Shown here: piece after piece, positions 11,287 to 14,200 of the stretch
Layout of the letters: each line of letters opens with the position of its first letter
Numbering within the stretch: position 1 is the first letter of the stretch
DNA from: Sedimenticola sp.
GTDB taxonomy: Bacteria > Pseudomonadota > Gammaproteobacteria > Chromatiales > Chromatiaceae
Length of the DNA stretch: 64,000 nt
Assembly: GCA_002869585.1 (NCBI GenBank)
Contig: PKUO01000003.1
Span: forward strand, 1 to 64,000
Direction of reading: 5' to 3'
Position numbers and translations under genes: made by a program
The notes under the pieces: model-generated
Database searches by the model: none
What the model saw: the letters and a program-made list of their open reading frames with translations, nothing else
Told to the model about the DNA's origin: nothing

Positions 11287-14200
11287 ATGCAGGACAACAA
11301 CATGGTAACCATAGACGGCAATGAAGCCGCCGCCTATGTCGCGCACATGACCAACGAAGTGATCGCCATCTACCCCATCACACCCTCGTCAAACATGGGT
11401 GAGTGGGCCGATGAGTGGTCCTCTCTCGGCATCAAGAATCTCTGGGGCAGCGTCCCGGACGTGGTCGAAATGCAGAGCGAGGCCGGTGCCGCCGGCGCCA
11501 TCCATGGGGCACTGCAGGCGGGTTCTCTCGCCACCACCTTCACCGCTTCCCAGGGTCTGCTGCTGATGATCCCCAACATGTACAAGATTGCCGGGGAGTT
11601 GACCCCGACGGTCTTTCACGTCTCGGCCCGCTCCCTGGCGGCGCAGGCCCTGTCGATCTTCGGCGATCACTCGGACGTGATGGCCTGCCGCTCCACCGGC
11701 TATGCCATGCTCTGCTCCAACTCGGTCCAGGAGGCGATGGACTTTGCCCTGATCTCCCAGGCCGCCTCGCTCGAGGGGCGTATCCCCTTTCTGCATTTTT
11801 TCGACGGCTTTCGCATCTCCCACGAGATCAACACCATCCATAAACTGAGCCGCAGCCAGATCGCGGCGATGATCGACAATGACCTGGTCGCCGCCCACCG
11901 CGCCCGCGCCCTGAGTCCCGATCACCCGGTGATTCGCGGCACCTCCCAGAACCCAGACGTCTACTTTCAGGGACGTGAAACGGTCAACCCTTACTACCAG
12001 CAACTGCCGCAGATCCTGCAGCAGCAGATGGACCACTTCGCCAGCCTCACCGGGCGCCAGTACCAACTGTTCGATTATGTCGGCGCGGCCGACGCTGAAC
12101 GGGTGATCTGCCTGATGGGATCAGGCGCAGGCGCAGCGGAAGAGACGGTCGAGCACCTGCAGGCACGTGGCGAGAAGGTGGGACTGCTGAAGGTGCGGTT
12201 ATTCCGACCCTTCGCAGCCGATCTCCTGCTTGCCGCAATCCCCGACACGGCGCAGAAGATTACCGTGCTGGATCGCACCAAGGAGCCCGGCGCGGATGGC
12301 TAACCCCTCTACAAGGACATTCTCAGCGCCTATGCCCAGGCCTTCAGCAACGGCCAGATCGCCACACTGCCGCGCATTACCGGCGGGCGTTTTGGCCTCT
12401 CGTCAAAAGAGTTCACACCGGCGATGGTGGTGGGCATCTTTGATGAAATGAAGAAAACTTCGCCGAAAAACCAATTTACGGTTGGCATCATCGACGATAT
12501 CACTCACTCCAATCTTGCCTGGGACCCCAGCTTCCGTCCCGACTGTGCAGCGGAAATGACCAACGCCGTGTTTTACGGACTGGGTAGCGACGGCACCGTC
12601 AGCGCCAACAAAAACTCGATCAAAATCATCGGCAGCGAGACCGACAACTTCGTCCAGGGCTATTTTCAGTACGACTCGAAAAAGGCCGGGGCGGTCACCG
12701 TCTCGCACCTGCGCTTCGGCCCGAAGCCGATCCGCTCCACCTATCTGATCGGTGAAGGTGAGGCCTCCTTCGTCGCCTGCCACCAGCCCACATTCATCAA
12801 CAGCTACGAGATGCTGGACAAGGCGGCCCCAGGGGCAACCTTCCTGCTCAACACCCAGACTTCACCAGACGAGGTATGGGACTCTCTGCCTAAAAATGTC
12901 CAGCAGCAGATGATCGACAAGCAGCTGCGTTTTTTCGTGATCGACGCCTACGGCATCGCCAAGCAGACCGACATGGGCCGGCGCATCAACACCATCATGC
13001 AGACCTGTTTCTTCGCCATCTCCGACCTGATCGACACCGATACCGCGATTGCGCAGATCAAACTGCTGGTGGAGAAGAGCTACGGTCGCAAGGGCAAGCG
13101 CCTGCTTGAGCGCAACTATGCGGCGATTGACGCCTCTGTTGCAGAGCTGCACCAGATTAAAGTCCCGGACCAGGTCAGCAGCCGCTTCGACCGGCCGCCT
13201 GTGGTCAGCATCAAGGCCCCGGAGTTTGTCCAGCAGGTGACGGCGAAGATCATCGCCGGCAAGGGCGACAGCCTGCCGGTGAGCGCCATGACCGCCGACG
13301 GCACCTGGCCCCTGGGCACCGCCGCCTGGGAGAAGCGCAACCTCGCCCTGGAACTGCCCAAGTGGGAACCGGACCTCTGCACCCACTGCGGCAAGTGCCC
13401 GCTGGCCTGCCCCCACGCGGCGATCCGCTCCAAGCTGTTCCGCGAAGAGTTGACCGAAAGCGCCCCGGAGAACTTTCTGCATGTGCAGATCAAAGGCAAG
13501 GATTTCGAACCTGGCTGGCACATCAGCTACCAGGTAGCTCCCGAGGACTGCACCGGCTGCGGTCTCTGCGTCGAAATCTGCCCGATCCGCGACAAAAAGA
13601 ACCCCGCGCGCAAGGCGCTCAACATGGTCGTCGACCACGACTACAAGGAACAGGAGATGGCCAACTGGGACTTCTTCCTGGGTCTGCCGGAGTATGACCG
13701 CAGCGGGCTCAAGCTCAACACCCTCAAGGGCTCGATGATCCTGCAACCGCTGTTCGAGTTCTCCGGCGCCTGCGTCGGCTGCGGCGAAACACCCTATATC
13801 AAACTCGCCACCCAGCTGTTCGGCGACCGCATGCTGATCGCCAACGCCACCGGCTGCTCCTCGATCTATGGCGGCAACCTGCCGACCACCCCATACACCA
13901 CCAACCCGGAGGGCCGCGGCCCGGCCTGGAACAACTCACTGTTCGAGGACACCGCCGAATTCGGCCTGGGAATGCGCCTGGCGGTGGATAAACAGACCGA
14001 CCAGGCACGGGAACTGCTGGCAGGGATGGAGAGCGAACTGGGCACGGAGCTGGTCAGCGCCCTGCTCCAGGCCGATCAGTCAGACGAGGCCGGCATCTAC
14101 GAACAGCGCCAGCGGGTAGAACAACTGAAGGGCAAACTGCAGAGCAGTGAACGGCCCGAAGCACGCAGGCTGCTGAGTCTGGCCGACATGCTGGTAAAGA

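Follow-up and report, generated by a model that had tools for sequence, protein, structure and literature searches.

The nifJ gene of this Sedimenticola sp. genome is interrupted by one in-frame TAA, and the event behind the interruption is genome-wide and not specific to nifJ. Judged from the sequence, the TAA would most probably be one instance of non-genuine G:C>T:A substitutions that occur throughout the assembly, with nifJ intact in the organism (a reading to which we give a probability of roughly 0.8). The window analyzed here is the whole stretch of 64,000 nt (assembly GCA_002869585.1, contig PKUO01000003.1, positions 1 to 64,000), and the genome from which it comes (G000) comprises 3.93 Mb in 109 contigs and is rated 100% complete and 0.91% contaminated.

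In the window, the frame for nifJ, encoding a single-chain pyruvate:ferredoxin oxidoreductase (PFOR), runs from 11287 to 14907 on the forward strand and matches TIGR02176 as well as Pfam POR_N, PFOR_II, POR, EKR, Fer4, and TPP_enzyme_C. The frame has 1206 codons and is otherwise intact, the sole break being the TAA at 12301 to 12303 (forward strand; codon 339), which the frame reading, the Pfam matches, and the alignment with relatives place within PFOR_II (residues 270 to 363). With an X at the stop, the protein scored 1766 bits against TIGR02176 over residues 6 to 1182, above the family cut-off of 911, while its halves scored 590 and 1107 bits separately. The length of the frame is normal, as solved single-chain PFORs have 1171 to 1232 aa and their alignments cover almost all of it. 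The original prediction, in which a single TAA split a nifJ of normal total length with conserved PFOR on both sides in one frame, was therefore borne out. Over residues 6 to 1182, the protein agrees with single-chain NifJ (TIGR02176; 6cin, 1b0p, and 7plm) in domain order, length, and motifs; it differs from those structures in that its reading frame is interrupted once, by a TAA at the position of a Glu in 6cin and an Asp in 7plm. The genome carries one copy of nifJ, and a dihydroorotate-dehydrogenase-like (DHOD-like) gene lies 3′ of it (14920 to 15918, forward strand; NF005741, 428 bits with a cut-off of 303).

Codon 339 could be compared across 109 aligned loci (own genome included): 91 have Glu, 16 have Asp, one has Cys, and one, that of G000, has the stop. 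In the searched relatives with full-length matches, nifJ is one open frame; the single stops in the nifJ matches of G030, G031, and G032 were rejected as internal and are normal C-terminal stops. The G000 protein differs at one other column that is invariant elsewhere, by Pro669Thr, which a C>A change could produce; this adds little, since each of 49 relatives has between 0 and 7 differences of this kind. In another genome (G043, contig C14, 21926 to 25670), nifJ is matched by two distinct frames (residues 4 to 629 and 677 to 1189), as if the gene were split elsewhere. Neither nifJ nor its DHOD-like neighbor was detected in the same-genus genome G001 (94% complete), which suggests that these two genes may be accessory in the genus, provided that they do not lie in the missing 6%. 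The only other large PFOR-like gene in G000, on contig C93, is 29% identical to nifJ over residues 8 to 715; it encodes a protein of 1636 aa (L163, 2194 to 7104) and sits between rnfB-like and rnfC-like genes (labels by eye). Similar PFOR-like frames of ~1550 to 1730 aa were matched in many of the searched relatives.

Counting nifJ, in-frame stops that look gene-internal numbered 36 in the 1.74 Mb (of 3.93 Mb) covered, including 4 within the window. The coding-potential scan supplied 28 of these and the homology scan six more, two of which (C24:4013 and C38:2448) were already among the looser coding-potential candidates, where they had at first been passed over by eye; the final two lie in a PilB-like gene. 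Run over 173 kb, the coding-potential scan returned 11 candidates; nifJ and three others among them stood in frames that beat any competitor, and those three read as conserved genes. Extended to 0.97 Mb, the scan gave 38 candidates and, at looser settings over 1.74 Mb, 65, most of them same-frame junctions of adjacent genes and 28 apparently gene-internal; internal stops and junctions were sorted by eye, and gene labels outside the window were likewise read by eye from translations unless a family search had been made. When the same scan was applied to two near-closed relatives (2 contigs each), 400 kb of each genome yielded 1 candidate (G032) and 8 candidates (G004), which read as noise or junctions, leaving none that was judged gene-internal in these stretches.

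The homology comparison was swamped by shadow frames when unfiltered, and filtering left 62 stops in G000 and 15 in the reverse direction. A stop was considered credible if it was the only one in its match, if at least 10 of 25 neighboring residues were identical, and if its frame was the open one. In 249 kb of G000, there were nine credible single-stop cases and no frameshift, and these nine were kept together with the two stops in the PilB-like gene; C69:8867 (10/25 identical) was put aside as ambiguous, and C85:39195, C93:51736, and C85:43908 were put aside as weak. The reverse comparison, over 203 kb, gave no stop judged credible and no frameshift. Here, G004:235860 (14/25) and G032:254041 were rejected because longer open frames occupy the complementary strand at both places, and the remaining stops were rejected because their matches contained more than one stop or showed low identity.

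All four stops in the window are spanned by a family model. In addition to nifJ, they affect (i) a DUF3501 gene (frame 17821 to 18423) with a TAG at 18232 to 18234 on the reverse strand, where PF12007 matches across the stop with 250 bits (residues 10 to 199 of 200); (ii) an ABC transporter ATPase (31357 to 32517) with a TAA near the C-terminus at 31453 to 31455 on the reverse strand, spanned by a TOBE_2 match; and (iii) a NirB-like FAD/NAD oxidoreductase (62343 to 64000) with a TAA near the N-terminus at 62454 to 62456 on the forward strand, where Pyr_redox_2 extends across the stop (residues 7 to 284). The DUF3501 position is Glu in 3/3 relatives and in the homology-scan reference, and the NirB-like position is Glu in 2/2 relatives. 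Outside the window, one in-frame stop each was found in tmk (C66:23823, reverse strand), gatB (C45:49951, forward), nadE (C85:270984, forward), glmS (C82:80809, reverse), and tpiA (C26:40652, forward), every one of which has one match in the genome. The interrupted ilvB has two stop-free homologues in G000, with 48% and 36% identity.

For 13 of the 36 stops, relatives show clearly which residue was replaced: Glu at nine (nifJ, nirB, glmS, DUF3501, ilvB, tmk, nadE, C24:4013, and an ntrC-like gene), Ser at three (gatB, cheB, and C76:4176), and Gly at one (a maoC-like gene). The residues for C24:4013, C76:4176, and the ntrC-like and maoC-like genes come from one relative each, and the gatB position is Ser in three relatives and Pro in a fourth. 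For each of the 13, the single step leading to the stop is necessarily G>T or C>A, so that the confinement to G:C>T:A that marks oxidized-guanine artifacts holds throughout the assignable set. When the routes that reach a stop in one step are weighted by G000 codon use, this class makes up 37% of them, so that 13 out of 13 would have P = 2.3e-6 at equal rates. The residues expected from the class are Glu (57%), Ser (16%), Tyr (12%), Gly (10%), and Cys (6%), and the observed mix fits. The assigned stops lie on both strands and on many contigs, and the implied rate is ~1e-3 per G:C site, an upper estimate in that five of the nine stops underlying it have unclear residues.

Of the other 23 stops, four are compatible but mixed, namely mltG (Asp, Glu, Asp), lon (Glu, Asp, Glu, Thr), tpiA (Ser, Ala, Ala), and a TSUP-like gene (Ser, Val, Val), and the TGA of the PilB-like gene (Gly) is compatible on one relative and was kept outside the 13. 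Nine are ambiguous: a methyltransferase (Asp, Glu, Ser, Pro), C38:37941 (Thr, Asn, Asn), a ZnuC-like gene (Val, with Glu in a distant paralogue), a pcnB-like gene (misaligned), C38:2448 (Asp), C66:13428 (Pro), C96:122914 (Lys), C96:101214 (Thr), and the TAG of the PilB-like gene (Ala). The last nine were counted without a relative's residue, and these comprise a coiled-coil protein (C66:63155), the ABC ATPase at 31453, TonB-receptor-like, EnvZ-like, NarX-like, and MscS-like genes, C93:40694, C66:2060, and C53:72201.

Oxidized guanine is the usual cause of G:C>T:A artifacts. If oxidized guanine (8-oxoG) was present in the DNA or the library, it would pair with A and produce G:C>T:A changes, which could enter the consensus at thinly covered places, and nifJ in the organism would be an ordinary intact PFOR gene. 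That the changes are an artifact rather than real DNA is most likely given the substitution pattern, and oxidized guanine is the likeliest underlying chemistry, although a different fault could leave the same spectrum. As in 8-oxoG sequencing artifacts, the assigned stops are of the G:C>T:A class only, on both strands and many contigs, with no frameshift. In contrast, such artifacts are normally rare in single reads, whereas here they must reach the consensus at ~1e-3 per G:C site. Several points weigh against an artifact. This rate is far above usual consensus survival and needs heavy damage together with thin coverage; half of the 36 stops have ambiguous or unassigned residues, among them C96:122914, where the one reference has Lys and the change would have to be at an A:T pair; the division into internal stops and junctions was made by eye; and gatB has Pro in one of four relatives. 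A report of an error-corrected method names oxidized guanines in overhangs after shearing as a possible error source, at ~1e-7 per base (PMC8748355), which is far below the rate seen here.

The stop had initially been regarded as equally attributable to a pseudogene, to readthrough, or to error. Error is now favored and the equality falls, because the stops recur across the genome, hit single-copy indispensable genes, and replace three different residues, which also strongly disfavors readthrough with one amino acid.

A real mutation is an unlikely explanation, whether as a G:C>T:A mutator lineage, as a fresh nifJ pseudogene with PFOR lost, or as one real nifJ stop among false ones. Loss of mutY or mutM gives a G:C>T:A spectrum too, and PFOR seems dispensable in the genus, as nifJ and its DHOD-like neighbor went undetected in G001; the 1636-aa PFOR-like paralogue is also available in G000. 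However, tmk, gatB, nadE, and glmS, which are normally indispensable, carry stops of this class, and because these genes are single-copy, a living cell could not have all of these stops. Furthermore, mutY (382 bits), mutM/fpg (308 bits), and mutT (108 bits) were matched with no stops inside, so that no loss of these repair genes is seen at the frame level (judged by internal stops). The genome thus resembles mutY/mutM mutators in its spectrum and differs from mutY, mutM, or mutT mutators in having open repair genes and broken single-copy indispensable ones. A single real mutation in nifJ, amid numerous false changes, is also possible and might be tolerated. Real DNA could also account for the pattern if the bacterium were highly polyploid and its many chromosome copies had each acquired their own G:C>T:A loss-of-function alleles, with intact copies masking the effect and the consensus happening to show the broken ones; nothing in support of polyploidy was seen in the analysis, and we regard this as very improbable.

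We give hardly any credence to stop codons being read as Glu, by readthrough or recoding, with full-length PFOR made. The first four stops found were all at Glu, and the two halves of nifJ are both well conserved; however, Ser and Gly positions are hit as well and TGA is involved, and reassignment of UAA/UAG to Glu was dropped once these cases appeared. Codon and residue do not correspond one to one, as TAG stands at Glu in glmS and ilvB and at Ser in gatB and cheB, while TGA stands at Gly. No anticodon pairing with a stop was found in 43 of the 44 tRNA matches of G000, the last one being cut by a contig end (C38:65674-65738; L162), and TAA, TAG, and TGA terminate 153, 102, and 264 open frames of >400 codons, respectively (non-coding open frames included). 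Reassignment of stop codons to Glu is known in some protists. The present case is similar in having in-frame stops in conserved genes, most often at Glu, and dissimilar in that the three codons fall at three kinds of residue, the tRNA matches with readable anticodons include no cognate one, and all three codons still terminate.

Least credible of all is a split enzyme in which the stop and the ATG at 12424 give a two-polypeptide PFOR: the ATG frame (12424 to 14907) does start just ahead of the POR domain (Pfam match from residue 433) and multi-subunit PFORs have solved structures (9bt4), but the stop lies within PFOR_II, so that residues 339 to 379 would be absent, the full-length-matching relatives carry nifJ as one open frame, and the genome-wide stop pattern needs no special role for nifJ.

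Taking the nifJ TAA as a sequence artifact, the assembly probably carries a systematic G:C>T:A fault that is hidden from completeness and contamination scores. Extrapolated from the rate in the homology scan, there are probably around a hundred false nonsense codons in a genome with a rating of 100% completeness and 0.91% contamination. The residue replaced and the base change at each in-frame stop provide a cheap, read-free check that can flag faulty assemblies. For the organism itself, the comparison of sequences indicates that the nifJ stop is most likely not a feature of its biology and that nifJ is intact, and claims of pseudogenes, gene loss, or recoding drawn from this assembly would mislead.
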